This document shows, piece by piece, positions 10,921 through 64,000 of a stretch of 64,000 bases of DNA (position 1 is the first letter of the stretch; each line of letters begins with the position of its first letter). The notes under the pieces are model-generated. The model saw only the letters and a list, made by a program, of their open reading frames with translations. It searched no databases and was not told where the DNA came from. Origin of the DNA: Mugil cephalus (taxonomy: Eukaryota > Chordata > Actinopteri > Mugiliformes > Mugilidae). The stretch lies in assembly GCF_022458985.1 (NCBI RefSeq), contig NC_061773.1:5028001-5092000 (forward strand), given 5' to 3'. The position numbers and the translations under genes were made by a program.

Positions 10921-15480
<4,560 letters not shown>

Positions 15481-16039
15481 CAGCAGCAGTACCTCAGACC
15501 CTCTGCCCTTTGGACCAGCTCCAGATTTATTGCACATCTCTCCAAATCATTATTTTTCTTGCATGCTAGTTCTTAGAATAGTGTAATGGCTTTACATAAC
15601 TGCAGTCTCAGTCAATGGCTACGTTTGCATCGACAATATTTTTTACAACCCAATTGAAAACATTCAGATCCGAAATTTTAACTGAAGTGTTACTTGGATG
15701 CTTAATAAAATAATTTGATGAAATATACTGTACATGTTTTTATTTACCTGGAAACATGAGAGAATATGTTTGTGGCCAGGCAATAGGCAGCACTCTAAAA
15801 TAATAACAAACAGATACCACTAGGGATAATTAAAAGAGCCCTTGGACTTTGTAAAAAGGCTCATAGTTTGTTTTTGTTTTTTTTAAATCAGGGGACAAGA
15901 GTTAAGAACCAAGCAGGAGACAGAACTTCCAATTAAAACTAGATATACTGCAATAAAACATGGATGGTACCACCCGAAAATAAATTTACAATGAAACACT
16001 AAAAACACTACAGCTCTTATAACTCAGGTCAACTGCAGC
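15481..16039 (+). other. 3' UTR and flank of gene A
   Basis: Collinear with 20744-21240 behind A2: for example tcaatggctac(a/g)tttgcatcgacaatatttt and gagaatatgtttgtggccaggcaa occur in both. The duplication that made A2 therefore included at least 480 bases downstream of the stop. Confidence 0.7.
15714..15719 (+). promoter_or_regulatory. Candidate poly(A) signal of gene A
   Basis: AATAAA about 235 bases after the gene A stop, inside a 3' flank that is conserved with A2 (equivalent signal at 20970). It is the first canonical hexamer I see after the stop. Confidence 0.5.
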
Positions 16040-16480
16040 GTGCTGCTCCCATCTGCTTGTACTTCCTCAAACGTCCTCATAGCTACCGGCTACCTCTAAG
16101 TTGGAGCGATGAAGCCCATGTGGAAGTGCAAAATTGCAGTTCTTTAAGTGGCCACTTGAGGCTGGTTCCAAAAGGGAGAAAATCCTCATAGACCCCCATG
16201 TTAAGAAGCCAAACTTTACAGTAATATTACAGCCTGGTACAAAAACACTGTTTTGGCCTCAATAGTTTATTTCACTATTCATGACAACTGTACAGAGGAT
16301 GATTTTTTTCCCTAACTCATTAGTTTATTTTTTAAGGTTTAAAGTTTGTCATAATTAAGGGAGCTAACGGGTAGTGGAGAGTGAGTGGACAGGTCTCAAT
16401 GTCTGACACAAAACCTCCTTGTCCATATTTGGAGTATCCAAGTATCCAATGGGTGACATCATTAAGGGTTTGTGCGAACA
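16040..16480 (+). repeat. Dispersed repeat X, copy 2
   Basis: Best-preserved copy of the repeat also seen at 3140-3560 and 21290-21450; it includes ggagcgatgaagcccatgtg and gacccccatgttaagaagcc. No coding capacity. Confidence 0.7.
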
Positions 16481-18654: not shown

Positions 18655-20743
18655 CTTAACTTTCATAACATTATTACAAACCACTTACTGAAAATGTTAT
18701 TTAGTAACATCTCTTTACATGCACTAGCTCTGACTCTCAGAAGACCAAGAAAAACTATTCAGCCACACTCTGCTTCTCTTACATCAGTAAAACCAACATC
18801 AGGTGACAAAGTTTTCCTTTAGATGGTGGTAATATTGATTCCTGAAAATATCTTCTTAATAATCCAGGAAGTGAGAAACTGTTATTTATCTTTTTATTTA
18901 CATGATAACATTTTACTTTAGCAATCATGTGTGATTTGTTCATTCAGAAGGTCCGACTGACAGACAGACTTTGGTTTTTCCACATGACACTGTTCGTTCT
19001 TCTGTTGCTACTTTCCTCTCAGACACAGTGAAAACTACAAAAGATAATGTGTCATGTTGCCTGTGATCCTTGAAAATTGTAATGTTTTTTGTCTTCTGGT
19101 ACTGATATACTGTAACTCTCGCTGCTGCAGGTAGTTTGACCTCTGCAGACCCAATGAATCCAGCATCTGGCGATGAACTAGTAGGTAGAAAAAGATTTTT
19201 AATCTTTGCATCAACGTGCGAGAATGAAATTCTTAGATGGGGATATTTATAAATATTTTTACCACATCTATCCCATGCAAGTTGCTAATTTGAATCATTT
19301 AACTGGTTACTTTAAGTGATTAGTTTATGCTTAATAGATCATTTTGGAATAACTGTCAAATTTTGAGGTGACCAACCCAAAAACCAGAATGATGAACAAT
19401 AATAAAGAGCAGTGTTTGTGACCCAGCATGTTATCAGTGACCACCCTGAAGAGAAGTTTCACAGGTTTTATGCTGATCTTGGCCTTTTTTTCTTAATCAG
19501 GCAAGATAGTGTGGACAATTGGAGCAGTTGTGACCCTGAGTGTTGTCTTTCTTGGATTTTTTCTTGGATTTGCACTTCTCTTTAGCCAGAGCAGGATTGG
19601 TAAGAGAAAAAAAAAAACAAAAACAAAAAACATACAACTAAATTCAGTTTATAAGCCTTCATTATGTGTATCAATTAAATTGTTCTCTGGTAGTGAAATG
19701 CCAATTACTCTGTGTTTCATGGGCGAATTAATTAAGTTTTCTAAATATGATTTTTTTTATTTTATTTTAGAGAAATGTGCTTCCAAGGGGTGAGAATTTT
19801 TAAGATCTTAAAGACATGAGTGCTAGCCTGCAACTTCTTTTTAATATTACTCTGCTTTGCATTGATTATTTCATATTATTAATTCCCCCAAACCAACCAC
19901 TGTCATCTAATGATGACAATGTCTTCAGTGACTTAAATGTCTTAAATGAAAAAAAAAATTACTTTGTTATAAATGTGCCTATTGTACTCTATCGCTGGAT
20001 GGTTTGGGTGTTTGAAATGACTCATGCAAACATTATATTCATTTCTAAAGCTGTAGGAGGCTTATGCAGCTTCTGTGTTCTCTCATGAGTTCTCATTGCC
20101 TTCCTTTGATACTGTCCAATATGCATTTGTTTCTCTCTATATATAATCTGCTGTTAAAAGACACAAGACTACTAATAAACTATCCTTTTTTTTTTCCAAA
20201 CAACAAAAGTCAATGTCATAGGTAAACCAAGACATATGCTACTCATCTGCATTCACTGCTACCATTCTAATCATGCCAATGCCTTATGTTGTCTATGCAC
20301 TGTATATTTTATTCATATGTGATTATTAAAGGTATTTTGTTTATCTTTTAGATGACTAGAAATCTTTGGTAAGTCTCACAACGAGAAGTGATTTAATCCT
20401 GCTTCTACTGACAGATTTACCTTCACACAACCTTCAGACTATTCTGTCTGTATATTTGTCTGTCCTCATTCTCCTTTTATTCTTATTAAATCATTTGCAG
20501 GCTGATTATGATGAAACCTACAGTATTGTCACCTATGAGTGCAAAAATGGTGAGTTGCTTCAGTCTCTGGAGTCGAGTAAATTATTCACTTGGTGGTGAA
20601 ACATCTGCTGAAACTGAAAGTGGCTTGAACAGAAACACATGTCATTACAGCTACAAATCAATGAATGGACCATATGATGTGAAATGACTGAGGGCACTAA
20701 AGGAAGTCCATTTATTTCTCTGTGTTTCTTGTCCGTAGAGTGA
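18655..20743 (+). pseudogene. A2: decayed duplicate of the 3' half of gene A
   Basis: Homology to gene A begins within intron 5 (about 12301) and runs through the stop. Recognisable exons: stalk 18728-18802, stalk 18950-19046 region, stalk 19131-19184, membrane 19501-19599 (12 nt longer than in A by a duplicated F-L-G-F unit), 19771-19789, 20350-20366, tail 20501-20549 and stop 20741-20743. Three lesions: the donor after the second stalk exon has changed from GT to AT; the acceptor of the exon matching 14927-14946 has lost its AG; and the D-D-W-K-S-L exon now reads TAG in place of the Trp codon. Signal peptide and Ig exons are absent. The tail exon E-T-Y-S-I-V-T-Y-E-C-K-N is unchanged from gene A. 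Confidence 0.85.
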
Positions 20744-21289
20744 CAGCAGCAGTACCTCAGACCCTCGGCCCCACCCTTTTCTTGCTTGTTTATATTAAAG
20801 TTACTTGGTGTTTGTATTAGTATCGCATTAAGACGTTTATAGAATAGTGTAATGGATTTACTTAACTGCAGTCTCAGTCAATGGCTACATTTGCATCGAC
20901 AATATTTTTCTAGCTCAGTTTGAAATAATTCTGTTCAGAAATTTTAACCGAAGTGTTACATGGATGCTAAATAAAATAATTTGATGAAATATACTGTACA
21001 TGTTTTATTTACCTGGAAACATGAGAGAATATGTTTGTGGCCAGGCAACAGGCAGCACTCTAAAATAGAAATATTAATAAATAGACACCACCTATGGATA
21101 ATTAAAAGAGCCCTAGGACTCTGTAAAAGGCTCACAGGTTCTTTAAAATCAGGGGACAAGAGTTAAGAACCAAGGAGATAGAACTTCCAATTAAAACTAC
21201 ATTTATTACAATAAAACATGGGACGGTACCATCCGAAAATAAATTCACAATGAAATACGACAACCTGGCCCATCAGTTCAGTTTTCCAG
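20744..21289 (+). other. 3' flank of A2
   Basis: Duplicate of the gene A 3' UTR and flank (15481-15960), with its own AATAAA at 20970-20975. No additional gene. Confidence 0.65.
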
Positions 21290-21450
21290 GGTGGCAGCCA
21301 GGCAGCAACCTCCGGGTCTTATGCAGCAACTTCCACGTGGGCGATGAAGCCCACATGGAAGTGTAAAATTGCAGTTCATCAAATGACTGCTTGAGGCTTC
21401 CTGGCAAATCCCCATAGACCCCCATGTTAAAAAGCCAAACTGTTCCAGCA
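21290..21450. repeat. Dispersed repeat X, copy 3 (truncated)
   Basis: Shares gcgatgaagcccacatggaa and catagacccccatgttaaaa with the copies at 3140 and 16040. Confidence 0.65.
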
Positions 21451-21479
21451 AAATAAAAACATATATGGTAAAAACACAC

Positions 21480-25018: not shown

Positions 25019-25213
25019 TTAAAACTAATTATCTCTGCCCAGGCACTCAACCTCTTACTTGTCTCGCTTCGTTAAGCGATAGGGCGTTTCCTCATCATTC
25101 TGAGTTTCGACTGGGCTCCTTATGGCTCTAACAACAGCGGCTTTTCCCTGTCGTTCTGGGGTCCAGCTCGGCTTCTTGCAGCTCAGACAACCATGGGTCC
25201 GTAAACTTACCAG

Positions 25214-25470
25214 CTGTTGTACGGTGGCTGATCCTTGGCAGGTGATGGCTGGTTATGCAGCGTCCTCGATGTGAATCCAAAACATTAGACTGAACAAAAG
25301 AAAAAGAAAGGGAACGTCTACGAGCTCTTCCAGCAAGATAGTGAACATGTGGCCTTGTTAAAATAAAGAAAAGTAACGTTACTGTTGTACCTCAGATGGT
25401 AGCGAGAGTTACATTTGGAAGCAGCGAGGGGGTGGGCGTCTCCGGTAGTTATAGCAACGGTGACTTCACG
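25214..25470 (-). promoter_or_regulatory. Candidate divergent promoter and noncoding first exon
   Basis: 25446-25470 reads gtagttatagcaacggtgacttcac: an AGCAAC half-site (RFX X-box type) immediately followed by a TGACTTCA CRE-like word, next to ggtgggcg. About 235 bases away the minus strand has cagctg/gtaagttta, a near-consensus splice donor at about 25213. The E copy keeps the donor (58571-58560) and the CRE-like word but has AGTAAC instead of AGCAAC. Transcription away from gene B is only inferred. Confidence 0.3.
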
Positions 25471-26690
25471 TCCTGTGGCTCATTCAGTAGATACAGTCAC
25501 TGGTGAGAGACAAGGATTTGACTCCACTGGATTTGACACACGTCAAACACACATAGGCTTGAAGGCTGCAGTGAATGATGGGAAAGGAAGTCTTTTTTAG
25601 GACTTCCTTTGTTTGAAAATTTTGGCGCTTTCCTGTGGTCAGGCTGTAGTCAAACCAAACATGCTCCACTCAGGCTTGTAGGCCCAACATCATACGAGTC
25701 ACAAAGTTGCTTCATCAATTTGGATTCAAAAATTTGCATTTGTATTTGTACCTTGGTCTAGGTCAATTGAGTCCAGACAACCAAATATTAAAATGACAAC
25801 AGACCAAAGCCTAAGCTGCTAAGATAATGAACATGCTAAGCATAAACCTCCTTGATGTCACTGTGGGCACGTTATCATGTCTATATTAGTATTCAGGTCA
25901 AAAACCAACTGGTCTCTAGCTGTTACTTGAGTCTCAGAAACGTGTTAGCCTGGCTGAAGACTCAACCACTTCCCTTTTAGTGGTGTCTGAAATAACTTCT
26001 TATATACGATGCAAATATGCATTACATATTTACCCTCTACTATTGTCTCATTTATTTGAATCTCTAACTAAGTGAAGTTACCCACTCTGTCTCTATCCAT
26101 TATCTTTTTGTTGCCTCCATATGTAAAGAACTGTCCCCAGTGATTAAGATTATTAAAAGTGAGCCCTGGAGGACTTCACTTCAGTTGACTCTTGTCAGTT
26201 CAGGCACAAAAATGTTTGATTGTACAGAAAAGACTTAAGTTTGCATTGTTGCTATAAAGGATTAGTTCTGTGTGCGCTGTGTGTCCATGGTTGATATGAA
26301 GTTGCAGCCAGCTGATTTAGGCTTCGCACAAAGATTGGAAACAGGTGGAAACAGACACCTTGGTTCTAAATCTAGAATCAAGAATCATTTATTGTCATTA
26401 TTATATATACATTTTGGGTGGTAGCTCCTTGCTTAAGTAGTACATGTGTAAAAACATTAGAATGAGTGCTAAACTAAAATAAAATGTTAATGTTTTCAAA
26501 ATGAGCACCACTTTGTCCTGTATGTATTAGTTTCCCCGACTCATCTCAAACCCCTTCATTGTGGTAGAGTTGATGAAAATATATTCGATAAAGATCTATT
26601 CAGTGTTTTGTTGCACATCACAAAAGTGAGTATAACAAACGTCTGCCTTTCTGTGGCTTGTTCATGTGACTGGCTTCTGATCTTGTGGTT

Positions 26691-26700
26691 TTCCTGAGAA
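26691..26700 (+). promoter_or_regulatory. TTC-N4-GAA site upstream of gene B
   Basis: TTCCTGAGAA, 89 bases before the start codon, as in A and E. TTC-N4-GAA is the STAT6-type spacing. Function is inferred from position and conservation only. Confidence 0.35.
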
Positions 26701-26779
26701 CAACTTCTCTTAATGCAGGTGGAGGTCACAGTAGTCAGACTACAGAGTAGTGTAGTCCATCACATAGTTCAGCTTCATC

Positions 26780-28308
26780 ATGGCTGGGAACCTGCAGCTA
26801 CTCATCCTCATGTGTGAGTTAAAACTTATTCTCAGCTTCTTTTCTTGTTAATGTTGCCTAATGTTTAATGTAGGACACTCAGCCATGTGATGACACTCAT
26901 GTCACTGATTTCTGTTACTGACGTGTTGTCTTACACCACTATAACAAATTAGAGTTGCTGATGAACTATTGTTGAATCTGTTTCAATTTTTTAATATTTC
27001 CTCCACCAGGTTTCTTTCTCGAGCTCAAAGCACAAGGTCAGTCTCTGAGTTTAATGTTTTCTCTTTTAATGTTTAATTTGAGCAGTTTGACTTCACTGAA
27101 TTTTTTTAAGTATATTATGAAAAACCATTGGTTCATCATGTAATTCATGTTACATCCATTTACCTCTAACATTTCAGACCTTCCTCCTCCTAATTTGATG
27201 GTGAATCAACAGGAGATTGAAGAAACAGACTCAGTGTTTCTCAACTGTCAGACTCCATCATCTGTTTCTGTGTCTCATTGTTATTTCAACTTTTTAAGAG
27301 ACAAACCAGCCATACATTTCTCCTGTCAGAAGACACTTTCAGCAACTGGACTTCTGTCACTGACACAGCAACGTTCACCTGCTACAGTTGAAGTGACATG
27401 TTTTTACCTTGATATGTTTTCATCTCCAGAGAGTAACATGTTGACCATCACCATACACAGTGAGTCCAAACTACTGAGAAGTAAATCACTATCGACTAAC
27501 TAACTAACTAACTAACTGACTAAATAGATAAATAAATGTATGTCTTAGTCCTCAATCTTCCACTAAAATCATATGATCAGAAAATACTTCAAAATGTATC
27601 TAATGTACTTTTATTTTTCAGAGGTTCTTCCACCTAAACTGACAGTGAATCCACCAGTGATCACAGAGACAGACTCAGTCTCTCTGAACTGTCAGCCTCC
27701 ACCATCAGCTTCTGTGTCTCAGTGTTATTTCAACTTTTTAAGAGACAAAGCAGCCAAGTCTTTCTCTTGTCTGAAGACACTGTCAGGAACTGAACTGCTG
27801 TCACTGGTACAACAACGTTCACCTGCTACAGTTGAAGTGACATGTTCTTACATGCGAGTGCATCAGTCTGAACACAGTAACATGTTGACCATCACCATAC
27901 AAAGTGAGTACACTTGTAAATGTATCAACATGTTTATTTCCCAGTAACAGTCATTTATTCCATCCACCATGTTTTTACTTTTTTAGCTCCTCAGCCTAAA
28001 CTGACAGTGACTCTACAGCTGATCATAGAGACAGAGTCAGTGGTATTGATCTGTGAGACTCCATCATCAGTTTCTGTGTCTCAGTGTTTTTTGTTCTTTA
28101 TGAGAACAAACACGTCCAGAGCTGTCTCTTGTCTGAAGCCACTGACAGGAACTGAGCTTCTGTAGATGTCACAGCAGAGTTCAGAAAAAAAAGAATAAAT
28201 CCTTTTACTTTTAAAATGTCACAGTGATACATAGCTGGAGACTGTGATGTTTCATGAGAGCTTCAACCACTGCAGCAAATTCTCTGAATTGGGGTTTCAT
28301 AATCAAAA

Positions 28309-28387
<79 letters not shown>

Positions 28388-31300
28388 GGGGAATTTCACA
28401 GCTCTGGGGAAGAAACTGACTCTTAGGTTAAATATTTTTGTGTTGACACAGAACTGACAGGCACAAGTCCATCCACAACAACACAGGAGATGACGACCCA
28501 GACAATCACATCTTTCAGAATGACCACAGGTGAGACATGTATCTAAACATCAGTCCATTACATCAACCAGTTACTGAAACTATTCTAAAGGTTTTCTTTT
28601 ATTGCACTAGGTCAGACTGTCACTATGTCAAGTAGCAGTTTTGGTTCACGATCTACTTCCCTAAAAGGTGACACACAAAATGAGTTTCCCAATAAATGAC
28701 ACACCAGGTCTAGATCTAGAGCACATTAAAACGTTTATCTTTTCATTGTTTTATATTTGTCTTTTGTTTCTTAAAGAAACAGTTTCTAGAGGAACTACCA
28801 GACCTGGTACAGGTGCTTTGACCCTGGGCTTGTTTCCTGTCACCACACCAGAGCCATCTTCAGGTGAACAAAATTTCTTCACATAGATATCATGTTTCTG
28901 TAACAATGCTCCTTGTGCTGTGTTTGTGGATTGTCATGCAGTTCAGAAACTAGTTTTGCATATTTACAATGTTTAACATGACTACCTCCAGTCTGGTGGT
29001 AGATATTATCTTGTTGGTGTGACGTCATCTGATTCTTTTGTTCTCATTCTGTAGGATTGAGACTTGCGGTCTTTGTTTTTCTGAAACAGATCTGTGGATG
29101 TGGAAGTTGGTAGTAGTTGTGCTTGGTTTTGGAGTGACTGTGGGCTTCATCCTACTGGGAGTGGTATTAGTTCATATCAAAAGAAGAAGTGGTAAGGACT
29201 GAAATCATTCGGCTTGAAAGCTCCAAAGTGTTTTTCTGTGTGTACACCGTTGAAGTACCACTTTTACCTCAGTTTGCAAATGTAAAAAGATGCAAAAGCT
29301 GCTCCGTCTTTTAGACCAGAGTTCATTCTGTTCAACCAGGAAATGACAACCACTAAAAATATCAACAGTTTAAAGTGAACTGATCTCAGTGGTTACTGAC
29401 TGCACTTTTCATACTCTCGTCTTCTTCTTTTTCCTACATTATTCAGGGAAGTGTAGTGACAAGAGGTAAGATTTGTTTTAAAAAATTATTTTCAACAACA
29501 GCTGAGTTACCTTGTTTAACAATGAAGTTCAGGTAAATGCTGAGTAAAGGTTCACTGGAGCATCAGCTACTGAAGCAGAGGGAAAAAACATATTCACATC
29601 CTGGATTATTTTAACAAGAGTTTTATTCATTCCCATACAGATTACAAGCCAGTGTTACTGGTAATGTACACGTTTACTGATTGGTCAACATCACAATATC
29701 ACTTCATACATATATGGTATGATTTGCACATTTCTTTTCGGTTCATTGAGCTTTTTTTTGTCCCCTGTTGTAGGTGAATCTGTGAACATGATGAGTGTTG
29801 ATCCTGGAGAACTGGTAATTTCCTTTTGGCAAAAGTCAAAATCACAGATCCTATACTACTGATGTGCATAACAAGGCTTCTTTGGCCTCTAACACTGCTC
29901 TCCTCCTGTAAAAAAAAAAAAAAAAAAGTTACCTGCAGGGAATATTGAGTCCTACCATGTGATCAGCTCATTGCCTGGTGCCGACTATCCCACTGCTGGT
30001 GAGCTTCTGCTTTTTCTCCTAGTGCTTATGACAAGAAACCATAATTATGTCCATAATTATGTCTAGCATGAGTTGTTTGCACTTTTTAAAAAGTACACAC
30101 TGTGTTTCCTCTAATAGTGGCCAGTATTCAGTTAATATTCAGAGGACAAATAAAAGCCGGTCTTGAATACAGTCTGCGTACGCCGATTATAGATGTAGTA
30201 ACACACAGGGACCACAGACATTGGGACGGTTACCCTTTATCGGTCATGTTTTCATGTGTGTATCTTACCATTTAAAACCCTGTAAATTTACTCAATAAAT
30301 GGACCTTGTTTATTTTTCATAGTTCAAACTGATACAATAGTGACATTTATATGTTTGTCCATTGTGACCACCCATGCTTAAGTGTTTATTGATCCTGCCC
30401 AGCTGCTGTTGCGTGAATGGTGTAGCTGCAAGTGAAAAAAAAAAATGTAAATGACAGGAAAACTTTGAGTATATGGTACGTATATGAAACAAAGGTATTA
30501 GAAATAAAGGCCTCCTTCTAAATAAGGTCTGCCTCCAATAATGGAAGGTGATCTGGACGGCTGAGTAAGTAAAGACCCCATCCGCTATTAGAAAAAATAC
30601 AGTATTGGACATATATACAGTACTGTGCAAATGTTTTAGGATTTTACAGCATTTTTTCCACAACTGGCTAAAACTTTTGCACAGTACTGTGGATATACAG
30701 TAATATTTTTGAAAGAATTCTTAGTTTACAGCATTTTTTCCACACCCGAGTAATGTATATATACATTTTATAATCAATCTGTGGGATTGATTAATGTTCC
30801 CCCACAAATCAAACATACTTTAAATACATATTTACATGAATATGACATATTTTAGTAGAGGGATAAAAGGAAGACGTTACCGCAGAGTGTAATATAGAAG
30901 AAATATAGTAGGTGGGGGTTCCCACTTAATCTCAGTTCAGGGGTCTTTGATCTGAAAAACATTGAAGACCTCTGGTTTACAGCATTTTTCCACACCAGTA
31001 CTCACTGTATATATACAGTACTCAGGTAAGGAAAAATGCTGTAAACTCAGAATGCTATCAAAATTATAAAAAATAGTTGTTTATTTTCTGATCAATTTAC
31101 AAAATGCAAAGTGAGCGAACAAAAGAAAAACCTAAGTCACATCAATATTTGGTGTTACTACCCTTTGCCTTCAAACCAGCATCAATCCTTATAGGTGCTC
31201 AAAGTCAGGGATTCTCCAGGATGGTCAAGGTCAAGTGAAAGGCCAAGGAAACTTAGTGCAGCAGAAGAAAATCACATCACGTCCATATAAATATTTGTCT

Positions 31301-58265: not shown

Positions 58266-59620
58266 TCACTTCAGCTGATAATCACAATATTCCCATACAA
58301 TAGCAGAGTTAGCGAACCAGAGTTTGCCTGGTCGGGAACTGGTTCTTGTCCAGTGATATTGGTTAATCAGTTGATCGCAGTGGATGACTGTCAACTAAAT
58401 AAGCAGCACTCACAAGTTTCACAAATACAAGTTAATTAAAACTAATTATCTCTGTCATTCTGAGTTTCGACTGGGCTCCTTATGGCTCTAACAACAGCGG
58501 CTTTTCCCTGTCGTTCTGGGGTCCGGCTCGGCTTCTTGATGCTCAGACAACCATGGGTCCGTAACTTACCAGCTGTTGTACGGTGGCTGATCCTTGGCAG
58601 GTGATGGCTGGTTATGCAGCGTCCTCGATGTAAATCCAAAACATTAGACTGAACAAAAGAAAAAGAAAGGGAACGTCTACGAGCTCTTCCGGCAAGATAG
58701 TGAACATGTGGCCTTGTTAAAATAAAGAAAAGTAATCTTACTAGTGTACCTCAGACGGTAGCGAGAGTTACATTTGGAAGCAGCGAGTGGGTGGGCGTCT
58801 CTGGTAGTTATAGTAACGGTGACATCACGTCCTGTGGGCTCATTCAGTAGATACAGTCACTGGTGAGAGACAAGGATTTGACTCCACTGGATTTCACACA
58901 TAGGCTCGAAGGCCGCAGTGAATGATGGGAAAGGAAGTCTTTTTTAGGACTTCCTCTGTTTGAACTTTTTGGCGCTTTCCTGTGGTCAGGCTGTAGTCAA
59001 ACCAAACATGCTCCACTCAGGCTTGTAGGCCCAACATCATACTAGTCACAAAGTTGCTTCATCAATTTGGATTCAAAAATTTGCATTTGAGTTTGTACCT
59101 TGGTCTAGGCCAATTCAGGCCAGACAACCAAATATTAAAATGATAACAGACCAAAGCCTAAGCTGCTAAGATAATGAACATGCTAAGCATAAACCTCCTT
59201 GATGTCACTGTGGGCACATTATCATGTCCATATTAGTATTCAGGTCAAAGACCAACTGGTCTCTAGCTGTTACTTGAGTCTCAGAAACGTGTTAGCCTGG
59301 CTGAAGACTCAACCACTTCCCTTTTAGTGGTGTCTAAAATAACTTCCTATATACGATGCAAATATGCATTACATATTTACCCTTTACTATTGCCTCAATT
59401 ATTTGAATCTCTAACTAAGTGAAGTTACCCACTATGTCTCTATCCATTATCTTCTTGTTGCCTCCATATTTAAAGAACTGTCCCCAGTGATGAAGATTAT
59501 TAAAAGTGAGCCCTGGAGGACTTCACTTCAGTTGACTCTTGTCAGTTCAGGCATAAAAACGTTTGACTGTACAGAAAAGACTTAAGTTTGCATTGTTGCT
59601 ATAAAGGATTAGTTCTGTGT

Positions 59621-60116
59621 TGTCAAGGTTCTATGTCTGTCTTTTATTTTGTGATCACGTTTTGAAGTTTCCTGTTTTATTTTGCCAAGTTTCCGAGATT
59701 CCTGTCCATCGTGTGGTTTTGTCATGTCTGTCTGTGTCATGTTGTGTATCCTGTTTTATTTTGTTAAGTTGTGGATTTCCTGTCTTGTGCCTCCTTGTCT
59801 CGCGATTGATTATTGGTCTCACTTGTGTTGATGTGTCTCACCTGTGTCTTGTCATCCCTCAGTCCTCATGTGTATATATAGCCCTGCCTTTCCCTTTGTT
59901 CCTTGTCGCGTCGTTAATGTTAGCTTAATGTCTTCATGCTATGGTTCATGTTCCCATGTCATGTTGATGATTTCTTTTGATTTTTGGATTTTGTATTTTC
60001 CTGCTATGCTTGCAGCGCCTTTTGCTTGTTATTAAATACTTTTTGTTTGAACTTCGTGCCTCATCTATAGTCCTGCATCTGGGTCCTCATCTCTACAACT
60101 TCCTCCATACTTGACA
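59621..60116 (+). mobile_element. Solo LTR with 5-bp target duplication
   Basis: Starts tgtcaagg and ends acttgaca (TG..CA). Flanked by TGTGT on both sides (59616-59620 and 60117-60121). The gene B flank (26270-26280) is the empty site with one TGTGT. Inside is a TATA-like tgtatatatagccc (about 59870) and attaaatac near the end, as expected for LTR promoter and poly(A) signal. 496 bp. Confidence 0.8.
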
Positions 60117-60549
60117 TGTGTGCGCTGTGCGTCCATGGTTGTTATGAAGTTGCAGCCAGCTGATTTAGGCTTCGCACAAAGATTGGAAACAGGTGGAAAC
60201 AGACACCTTGGTTCTAAATCTAGAATCAAGAATCATTTATTGTCATTATTATTTATAAATTTTGGGTGGTAGCTCCTTGCTTAAGTAGTGCATATGTAAA
60301 AACATTAGAATGAGCGCTAAGAAAACACTAAAAGAAAATGTTAATGTTTTCAATGTGAGTGCCACTGTGTCCTGTATGTATCAGTTTCCCCGACTCATCT
60401 CAAACCCCTTCACTGTGGTAGAGTTGATGAAAATATATTCGATAAAGATCTATTCAGTGTTTTGTTGCACATCACAAAAGTGAGTTTAACAAACGTCTGC
60501 CTTTCTGTGGCTCGTTCATGTGACTTCTGTGGCTTCTGATCTTGTGGTT

Positions 60550-60559
60550 TTCCTGAGAA
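60550..60559 (+). promoter_or_regulatory. TTC-N4-GAA site upstream of gene E
   Basis: TTCCTGAGAA, 89 bases before the start codon, the same spacing as in A and B. Confidence 0.35.
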
Positions 60560-60638
60560 CAACTTCTCTTAATGCAGGTGGAGGTCACAGTAGTCAGACT
60601 ACAGAGTAGTGTAGTCCATCACATAGTTCAGCTTCATC

Positions 60639-61967
60639 ATGGCTGGGAACCTGCAGCTACTCATCCTCATGTGTGAGTTAAAACTTATTCTCAACTTCTT
60701 TTCTTGTTAATGTTGCCTAATGTTTAATGTAGGATACTCAGACATGTGATGACACTCATGTCACTGACTTCTGTTATTGACGTGTTGACTTACACCACTA
60801 TAACAAATTAGAGTTGCTGATGAACTATTGTTGAATCTGAATGTTTAAACATTTCCTCCACCAGGTTTCTTTCTTGAGCTCAAAGCACAAGGTCAGTCTC
60901 TGAGTTTAATGTTTTCTCTTTTCATTGGAAGAGCAGTTTAAAAGTATCTTTTAATTATATTTTGAAAAACTCATCATGTCTCATCACGGATCATTAGTAA
61001 ATGTAATTCATGTAACATCCACTTACCTTTAACATTTCAGACCTTCCTCCTCCTAATTTGACGGTGAATCAACAGGAGATTGAAGACACAGACTCAGTCT
61101 TTCTCAACTGTCAGACTCCATCATCTGTTTCTGTGTCTGATTGTTATTTCAACTTTTTAAGGGACAAAGTAACCAAGTCTTTCTCTTGTCTGAAGACACT
61201 GTCAGGAACTGAACTGCTGTCACTGGTACAACAACGTTCACCTGCTACAGTTGAAGTGACATGTTCTTACATGCGAGTGCATCAGTCTGAACACAGTAAC
61301 ATGTTGACCATCACCATACAAAGTGAGTACACTTGTAAATGTATCAACATGTTTCATTTTCCAGTAACAGTCATTTATTCCATCCACCATGTTTTTACTT
61401 TTTTAGCTCCTCAGCCTAAACTGACAGTGACTCCACAGCTGATCACAGAGACAGAGTCAGTGGCATTGATCTGTCAGACTCCATCATCAGTTTCTGTGTC
61501 TCAGTGTTTTTTGATCTTTATGAGAAAGACCACGTCCAGAGCTGTCTCTTGTCTGAAGACACTGACAGGAACTGAGCTTCTGTCGATGTCACAGCAGAGT
61601 TCACCTGCTGAGGTTGAAGTAACATGTTATTATACAGTGGAGCGTAGAGGAGAACATCATCCATCTCCACAGAGTAACAGAGCCTCCATCAGCATACTGA
61701 GTAAGTGGCCATGCTACCATGTTCTTAGTTGTATCACTAAGTCAATGTATTGTCAATGTTGCAAACCAGAAATAATGGGGGGGAAAAAAATCCTTTTAAA
61801 ATGTCACAGTGATACAAAGCTGGAGACTGTGATGTTTTATGAGAGCTTCAACCACTGCAGCAAATTCTCTGAATTGGGGTTTCATAATCAAAATCAAGAA
61901 TAACTTATAACATATAATAAATATATTAAAAAATATTTAAACAGAGCTGTGTCAGGAGGGAAGGTTG

Positions 61968-62043
<76 letters not shown>

Positions 62044-63655
62044 TAGGGAGGATTTCACAGTTCAACTGACTGACTCAGTTTAATTTATTTGTGTTCACGT
62101 AGAACTGACAGACACAAGTCCATCTACAACAACACAGGAGATGACAACCCAGACAATCACATCTTTCAGAATGACCACAGGTGAGACATGTATCTAAACA
62201 TCAGTCCATTACATCAACCAGTTACTGAAACTATTCTAAAGGTTTTCTTTTATTGCACTAGGTCAGACTGTCACTATGTCACGTAGCAGTTTTGGTTCAC
62301 TATCTACTTCCCTAAAAGGTGACACACAAAATGAGTTTCCCAATAAATGACACACCAGGTCTAGATCTAGAGCACAATAAAACGTTTCTCTTTTCATTGT
62401 TTTATATTTGTCTTTTGTTTCTTAAAGAAACAGTTTCTAGAGGAACTACCAGACCTGGTACAGGTGCTTTGACCCTGGGCTTGTTTCCTGTCACCACACC
62501 AGAGGCATCTTCAGGTGAACAAAATTTCTTCACATAGATATCATGTTTCTGTAACAATGCTCCTTGTGCTGTGTTTGTGGATTGTCATGCAGTTCAGAAA
62601 CAAGTTTTGCATATTTACAATGTTTAACATAACTACCTCCAGTCTAGTGGTAGATATTATCTTGTTGGTGTAATGTCATCTGATTCTTTTGTTCTGATTC
62701 TGTAGGATTGAGACTTGTGGTCTTTGTTTTTCTGAAACAGATCTGTGGATGTGGAAGTTGGTAGTAGTTGTGCTTGGTTTTGGAGTGACTGTGGGCTTCA
62801 TCCTACTGGGAGTGGTATTAGTTCACATCAAAAGAAGAAGTGGTAAGGACTGAACTCATTCGGCTTGAAAGCTCCAAAGTGTTTTTCTGTGTGTACACCG
62901 TTGAAGTACCACTTTTACCTCAGTTTGCAAATGTAAAAAGATGCAAAAGCTGCTCCGTCTTTTGGACCAGAGTTCATTCTGTCGACTATAACCAGGAAAT
63001 GACAACCACTAAAAATATCAACAGAAGTGAACTGATCTCAGTGGTTACTGACTGCACTTTTCATACTCTCGTCTTTTTCTTTTTCCTACATTATTCAGGG
63101 AAGTATAGTGACAAGAGGTAAGATTTGTTTTAAAAAATTATTTTCAACAAAAGCTGAGTTACCTTGTTTAACAATGAAGTTCAGGTAAATGCTGAGTAAA
63201 GGTTCACTGGAGCATCAGCTACTGAAGCAGAGGGAAAAAACATATTCACATCCTGGATTATTTAACAAGAGTTTTATTCATTCCCATACAGATTACAAGC
63301 CAGTGTTACTGGTAATGTACACGTTTACTGATTGGTCAACATCACAACATCACTTCATACATATATGGTATGATTTGCATCTTTGTTTTCGGTGCATTGA
63401 GCTTTTTTTGTCCCCTGTTGTAGGTGAATCTGTGAACATGACGAGTGTTGATCCTGGAGAACTGGTAATTTCCTTTTGGCAAAAGTCAAAATCACAGATC
63501 CTATACTACTGATGTGCATAACAAGGCTTCTTTCGCCTCTAACACTGCTCTCCTCCTGTAAAAAAAAAAAAAAAAAAAAAAAAAGTTACCTGCAGGGAAT
63601 ATTGAGTCCTACCATGTGATCAGCTCATTGCCTGGTGCCAACTATCCCACTGGTG
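60639..63655 (+). CDS. Gene E: two-Ig-domain receptor-like protein, long tail (3' end beyond window)
   Basis: Exons: 60639-60672, 60865-60891, 61041-61322 (Ig 1, fused), 61407-61700 (Ig 2), 62103-62180, 62262-62318, 62428-62514 (stalk), 62741-62842 (membrane), 63099-63117, 63292-63311, 63424-63464, 63586-63655. Phases agree throughout and 1111 nt (370 codons) lie in the window; two more tail exons are expected about 2 kb further on by comparison with B. The signal peptide is the same as in A and B. Ig 2 equals the damaged third Ig of B, here intact, but the N-T-S sequon of A and B is K-T-T. The membrane segment (W-K-L-V-V-V-V-L-G-F-G-V) and stalk are almost identical to B. The tail so far has L-P-A-G-N-I-E-S-Y-H-V-I. 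Apparently functional. Confidence 0.8.
61971..62040. repeat. (GT)n microsatellite
   Basis: Same intronic position as the tract in gene B at 28313-28384. Confidence 0.95.
63560..63585 (+). repeat. A25 run at a splice acceptor of gene E
   Basis: Twenty-five A then G precede exon 63586-63655; seven more A than in gene B. Confidence 0.8.
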
Positions 63656-64000
63656 GTAAGCTTCTGCTTTTTCTCCTAGTGTTTATGACAACAAACCATA
63701 ATTATGTCTAGCATGAGTTGTTTTTAAAAAGTAAACACTGTGTTTCCCCTGATTGTGGCCAGTATTCAGTAAATAGCCAGAGGAAAAAAAATACAGGGGA
63801 GGGAGCTGTGAAACGCTTTAATATCAACCCGCGAACAATAAGTTGTTCTGACATTGGGACGGTTACCCTTTATCGGTCATGTTTTCATGTGTGTATCTTA
63901 CCATTTAAAACCTCGTCAATTTACTCAATAAATGGACCTTGTTTATTTTTCATAGTTCAAACTGATACAGTAGTGACATTTATATGTTTGTCCATTGTGA
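63656..64000 (+). other. Start of the next intron of gene E
   Basis: Parallels 29999-30340 of gene B, with a small divergent patch near 63780-63850. No exon falls in it. Confidence 0.7.

Follow-up and report, generated by a model that had tools for sequence, protein, structure and literature searches.

The question raised by this locus is whether an Ig exon of gene E descends from a single exon type or was joined from two, and how such an exon bears on the number of Ig domains in the cluster. Three neighbouring genes, A, B, and E, carry Ig exons of this type within the window, by which we mean the whole 64-kb stretch of DNA that was analysed. To judge from their look, they form a small cluster of related immune-type receptor genes, probably from a fish. 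Coordinates are those of the window, and the features given below lie on the + strand. The preliminary description of this DNA had stated that the exon of gene E follows the first Ig exon of gene B in its left part and the second in its right part, and that an in-frame unequal crossover had deleted one domain.

E1 is a fusion of two Ig exon types

We compared the gene E exon, E1 (61041 to 61322), site by site with B1, the Ig1 exon of gene B (27178 to 27459), and with B2, the Ig2 exon of the same gene (27622 to 27903). Each of the three exons measures 282 nt, lies between AG and GT, and keeps the frame, and the coordinates previously assigned to them were exact. Of the 282 positions, 55 distinguish B1 from B2, and at these E1 has the B1 base 21 times, the B2 base 33 times, and neither base once. 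A single switch fitted 52 of the 54 decidable sites and was equalled by 0 of 100,000 shuffles of the sites. Only 61062 and 61099 were exceptions, both left of the switch and both B2-like. When aligned to both B exons, E1 showed one switch and no uniform identity to either of them. These results confirmed that the fusion exon is real, with an Ig1-type left part and an Ig2-type right part. The motif YMRVHQ, which had been pointed out earlier, is common to E1 and B2, and the intron stretch tcaacatgttt is likewise common to the intron after E1 and B intron 2.

With B1 and B2 as parents, the sites that bound the switch are 61141 and 61169, which places it about 40 nt to the left of the position near 61195 that had been expected. 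Site comparison gave a switch zone of 27 nt between these two sites (61142 to 61168), and because B1 and B2 are identical throughout it, the junction has no finer placement on these parents. When A1, the Ig1 exon of gene A (11324 to 11605; 96.1% identical to B1), stood in for B1 on the left, a single switch fitted 46 of 49 sites, with a bracket of 61128 and 61153. In a control with A1 compared with B1 and B2, 47 of 55 sites were B1-like and 8 were B2-like, and the switch was absent; A1 is thus not chimeric with respect to these exons. The reciprocal control, B1 compared with A1 and B2, gave 47 A1-like and 3 B2-like sites out of 50, again with the switch absent.

E1 carries private bases at 61139, left of the switch, at 61162, within the zone, and at 61170 and 61172, right of it. 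These account for four of the seven differences between E1 and the mosaic, and all four fall within 61139 to 61172. We make no claim from this cluster, with p values of 0.005 for that particular place and 0.12 for any 34-nt window.

In addition to the site comparison, trees were built for the two parts of E1. In the left-part tree, E1 grouped with A1 and B1 (support, 100/99), and a grouping of E1 with B2 was rejected (p-AU, 0.003); the pairing of B1 with E1 within this group had a support of just 64/75. In the right-part tree, E1 grouped with B2 (support, 91/95; not starred), and both E1 with B1 and E1 with A1 were rejected (p-AU, 1e-37 and 2e-63, respectively). The grouping of E1, A1, and B1 against the rest survived the test of the right part with a p-AU of 0.089, which counts against the fusion reading.

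The frame, the splice phases, and four cysteines are preserved in E1. Taken at the sequence level, an in-frame fusion in the middle of an Ig domain with the loss of one domain is supported as the best reading of this exon. E1 would then be a clear nucleotide-level case of tandem Ig exons recombining to change domain number, in which a hybrid domain was made without breaking frame, phase, or cysteines.

Introns, divergence, and the origin of E1

The introns were compared with each other. The intron after E1 (61323 to 61406) is homologous to B intron 2 (27904 to 27986), with a local score of 133 against a shuffle mean of 18.6, and differs from it by one base change and one gap. In contrast, the gene A intron (11606 to 11673) aligned with B intron 1 (27460 to 27621) with a score of 46, which was reached by 0 of 500 shuffles, and showed no similarity above chance to the E intron (476 of 500 shuffles scored as high). 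B intron 1 was weakly similar to the E intron (34 of 500 shuffles reached the score) and at most weakly similar to B intron 2 (20 of 500 shuffles). Because the A and E introns match different B introns, the two genes probably did not inherit their two-domain layout from one two-domain gene with a shared intron, and each probably retained a different intron of a gene that had both.

The B1-to-B2 spacing is 444 bp, and we consider it likely that E1 arose from a homology-based deletion of 444 bp in a B-like copy with three domains. The common ancestor of A, B, and E would have been a type I membrane receptor gene with Ig1, Ig2, and Ig3 exons in a row, each with symmetrical phase. A tandem duplication would have separated E from B before the E1 event. 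In the E lineage, the Ig1 and Ig2 exons would then have recombined within the 27-nt identical stretch, with the loss of one 444-bp repeat unit that ran from the back of Ig1 through intron 1 into the front of Ig2. This would leave one in-frame hybrid Ig exon, to which Ig1 contributes roughly strands A to C and Ig2 the remainder. In favor of a deletion, gene B retains Ig1, Ig2, and a relic of Ig3. Thus, the earlier claim of an in-frame unequal crossover stands as to a single in-frame fusion with domain loss; as to the crossover itself, a crossover between genes and single-strand annealing within one gene give the same product and are indistinguishable.

B and E diverge by 4.4% on the left side of the switch and by 3.0% on the right side, compared with 3.5% for the 4580 sites of five aligned segments. 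The similar values on both sides fit a simple deletion after duplication. B and E lie within a duplicated stretch (25095 to 30367 and 58455 to 64000) that is about 3.5% diverged. Upstream sequence is common to the two genes (25095 to 26273 with 58455 to 59620), and among the matches found there was none near gene A. Next to this upstream sequence, about 500 bp of the E copy (59620 to 60117) have no counterpart in B among the matches found, and part of this segment matches 1364 to 1747 in reverse.

A gene conversion in a shifted register would explain the right part of E1 differently. Under this alternative, E already had two Ig exons, and sequence running from B2 through intron 2 to the start of B3, the third Ig exon of gene B, overwrote E from the back of its Ig1 exon, across the intron, into the front of E2, its second Ig exon. 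The required pairing is available, as E1 and E2 can align with B2 and B3 in the shifted register (61027 to 61603 with 27608 to 28183). The right part of E1 together with the intron differs from B at only 3 of 237 sites (1.3%), a lower divergence than that of the upstream part (40 of 893, p 0.02) or of B3 compared with E2 (10 of 194, p 0.02). However, against the downstream part (p 0.11) and the left part of E1 (p 0.20), the same sites showed no significant reduction in divergence, and the p values of these four tests are uncorrected. Similarly, the longest identical run between B and E, 182 nt (61173 to 61354), sits directly right of the switch, but under uniform divergence a run of this length is expected somewhere with a probability of 0.21 and is not unusual. 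Conversion also demands an extra, earlier domain loss in E, that is, two events where one suffices. We therefore regard conversion as an improbable origin of E1, although a conversion patch right of the switch, later than or instead of the deletion, is possible judging from the low divergence there.

The opposite direction of change, in which B is the derived gene and gained a domain when an A-like and an E-like gene, each with two Ig exons, crossed over unequally, is very unlikely. It would account for the A intron matching B intron 1 and the E intron matching B intron 2, for B2 starting like A2, the second Ig exon of gene A, and finishing like E1, and for the survival of the E1, A1, and B1 grouping in the right-part test (p-AU, 0.089). 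However, columns 31 to 101 of the B2 exon match neither A2 (58 of 71 identical) nor E1 (55 of 71). A comparison with five other exons (B3 left out) gave no close copy of these columns, with 55 to 59 of 71 positions identical, which suggests that Ig2 is old and that its recent origin is unlikely. In the leader region, B and E were the closest pair (4.5%), followed by A and E (5.8%) and A and B (7.4%), over stretches that are not exactly the same; a gain in B predicts that B is nearer A than E. Moreover, a gain in B would make the A and E introns alleles of a single intron, yet they do not align.

An assembly artefact, with B reads collapsed into E, has a negligible chance of being correct: a local collapse is conceivable where B and E differ at just 3.5% of the 4580 aligned sites and where a 182-nt run of E1 and its intron, right of 61172, matches B without a difference, but E-private bases flank the switch left (61139) and right (61170 and 61172), which collapsed B reads would not give, the intron right of the switch carries one base change and one gap, gene A has the same kind of fusion with a different junction, the window contains 0 N, and the introns around E1 (149 and 84 nt) are too short for another Ig exon.

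Domain number in genes A and B

The preliminary description had given gene B three Ig exons, which holds for the DNA and fails for the coding sequence, as the third exon is broken. This exon, B3 (27987 to 28183), was delimited by the B-E match and by translation and is a relic Ig3 exon: a TAG lies in frame at 28163 to 28165, and the 3' end and the splice donor are lost. The match between B and E stops at 28183/61603 and restarts at 28208/61793. A model of gene B without B3 keeps the frame through the transmembrane exon. The usable Ig exons of gene B thus appear to be Ig1 and Ig2, as a result of the decay of Ig3.

Gene A contains a second, different chimeric exon. A2 (11674 to 11970) has a start of Ig2 type and a body of Ig3 type, and its switch lies between 11684 and 11701. 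The switch zone defined by the exon alignment (11685 to 11700) comprises 16 nt that are identical in A2, B2, B3, and E2. Left of the switch, the first 11 nt of A2 are B2-like at all six exon sites, and when the end of the preceding intron was included, 18 of 21 ungapped informative columns followed B2. Right of the switch, 62 of 65 columns were Ig3-like. With a front of B/E type, gene A may itself have been joined from two gene types. Its 3' half (12310 to 16227) has a partial copy downstream (18658 to 21454), in four matching pieces that are 77 to 90% alike, and a search of the 64-kb window with the exon profile found no Ig exon of this type near that copy.

In the Ig3 stretch, A2 and B3 were the closest pair (4 of 177 sites differed), followed by A2 and E2 (6 of 177) and by B3 and E2 (10 of 180). 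Because A2 is closest to B3 here, B and E are not sisters throughout, which counts against the deletion reading, and no single simple tree describes how the three genes are related.

A cluster profile built from six exons was run over the 64-kb window and identified seven exons of this Ig type, including the B3 relic; the next best match had an E value of 0.067. Each gene has two usable Ig exons, namely, Ig1 and Ig2/3 in A, Ig1 and Ig2 in B, and Ig1/2 and Ig3 in E. Apparently, the three genes reached this number from a three-domain gene by three routes: E fused Ig1 and Ig2 in mid-domain, A would have lost its domain by a fusion of Ig2 and Ig3 near the exon start, and B killed Ig3 by decay. E1 itself adds one more case to a known class of event, the mechanism of which is textbook; the added finding is that three neighbouring genes have come to two usable Ig exons by what look like three routes, that is, three apparent ways to lose one domain in one small cluster. 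Whether selection favors exactly two Ig domains, so that A, B, and E went from three to two independently and by different routes, with hybrid domains as a source of new binding surfaces, is a tentative idea that we think is rather less probable than not. A comparison of the cluster among related species could become a test of selection on domain number.

Hybrid genes produced by unequal crossover between tandem repeats include haemoglobin Lepore and haptoglobin 2. E1 resembles them in that misaligned similar copies gave an in-frame hybrid or an altered repeat number, whereas the E1 hybrid joins neighbouring domain exons of one gene type. In teleosts, the NITR, DICP, LITR, and NILT families are tandem, fast-changing multigene families of Ig receptors. 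The present cluster, probably also from a fish, resembles them in its tandem Ig receptor genes. Zebrafish NITRs form an Ig-domain cluster, according to one report (PMC1193534).

The closest parallel found was primate KIR, in its putative way of working rather than by membership, and the gene structures fit. According to the KIR source (PMC7516082), fusion genes accompany unequal crossing-over, and a three-domain gene is the supposed origin of the two-domain receptors. The likeness to the present cluster would lie in the change from KIR3D to KIR2D, the fusion genes, and the head-to-tail arrangement of receptor genes in which every Ig domain has its own exon. The same text describes a damaged KIR Ig exon that is constitutively skipped with the frame preserved (PMC7516082), and such skipping is what the relic exon B3 would need. 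For the few human KIR fusion genes that have been sequenced in full, breakpoints are placed in transposable elements inside genes (PMC7516082); in contrast, both junctions of the present cluster, in E1 and in A2, lie inside Ig exons. A hybrid Ig exon of this kind was named in none of the titles or abstract starts of the literature searched.

The predicted product of gene E

Gene E begins with leader exon 1 (60639 to 60672), recognized by an ATG and a GT donor, and leader exon 2 (60865 to 60891), which has AG/GT borders and keeps the frame. E1 is followed by E2, an exon of Ig3 type (61407 to 61700), and by Ser/Thr-rich stalk exons and a putative transmembrane exon (62103 to 62842, with the transmembrane exon at 62741 to 62842), which have AG/GT borders and an open frame. 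The predicted protein, with labels read from the sequence, would comprise a leader, two Ig domains, a Ser/Thr-rich stalk, and a hydrophobic segment.

Cysteines 23, 34, 49, and 74 are invariant in all six exon sequences compared. Cys 23 and Cys 74 would correspond to the conserved pair of strands B and F, if the strands are named and the disulphide is paired as usual. A low-confidence structure model of E1 (mean pLDDT, 55.9) shows five strands and one helix. The switch zone corresponds to residues 34 to 42, in and just after a strand (residues 31 to 39) of this low-confidence model, and under the usual pairing, the disulphide between the first and last cysteines would cross the E1 junction. Since all four conserved cysteines are kept, gene E should still encode a two-Ig receptor if expressed.

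The Pfam family Ig_2 was matched below threshold by all six exons scanned (A1, A2, B1, B2, E1, and E2; the B3 relic was left out), with a best E value of 0.003. E1 alone reached 17 bits against a cut-off of 27, and E1 and E2 together reached 21.4 bits against the same cut-off, with an E value of 0.0003. A phmmer search of E1 plus E2 against PDB chain sequences gave 0 hits at E values up to 10, and so no similarity to the KIR D0, D1, or D2 domains, in a kind of search that misses distant relatives.

The model of the gene E tail is uncertain. In the segment from 63424 to 63655, a simple splice model ends early, with GELGILSPTM followed by a stop. The acceptor before 63596 is preceded by a run of A, and another frame, read by eye, gives NIESYHVISS.
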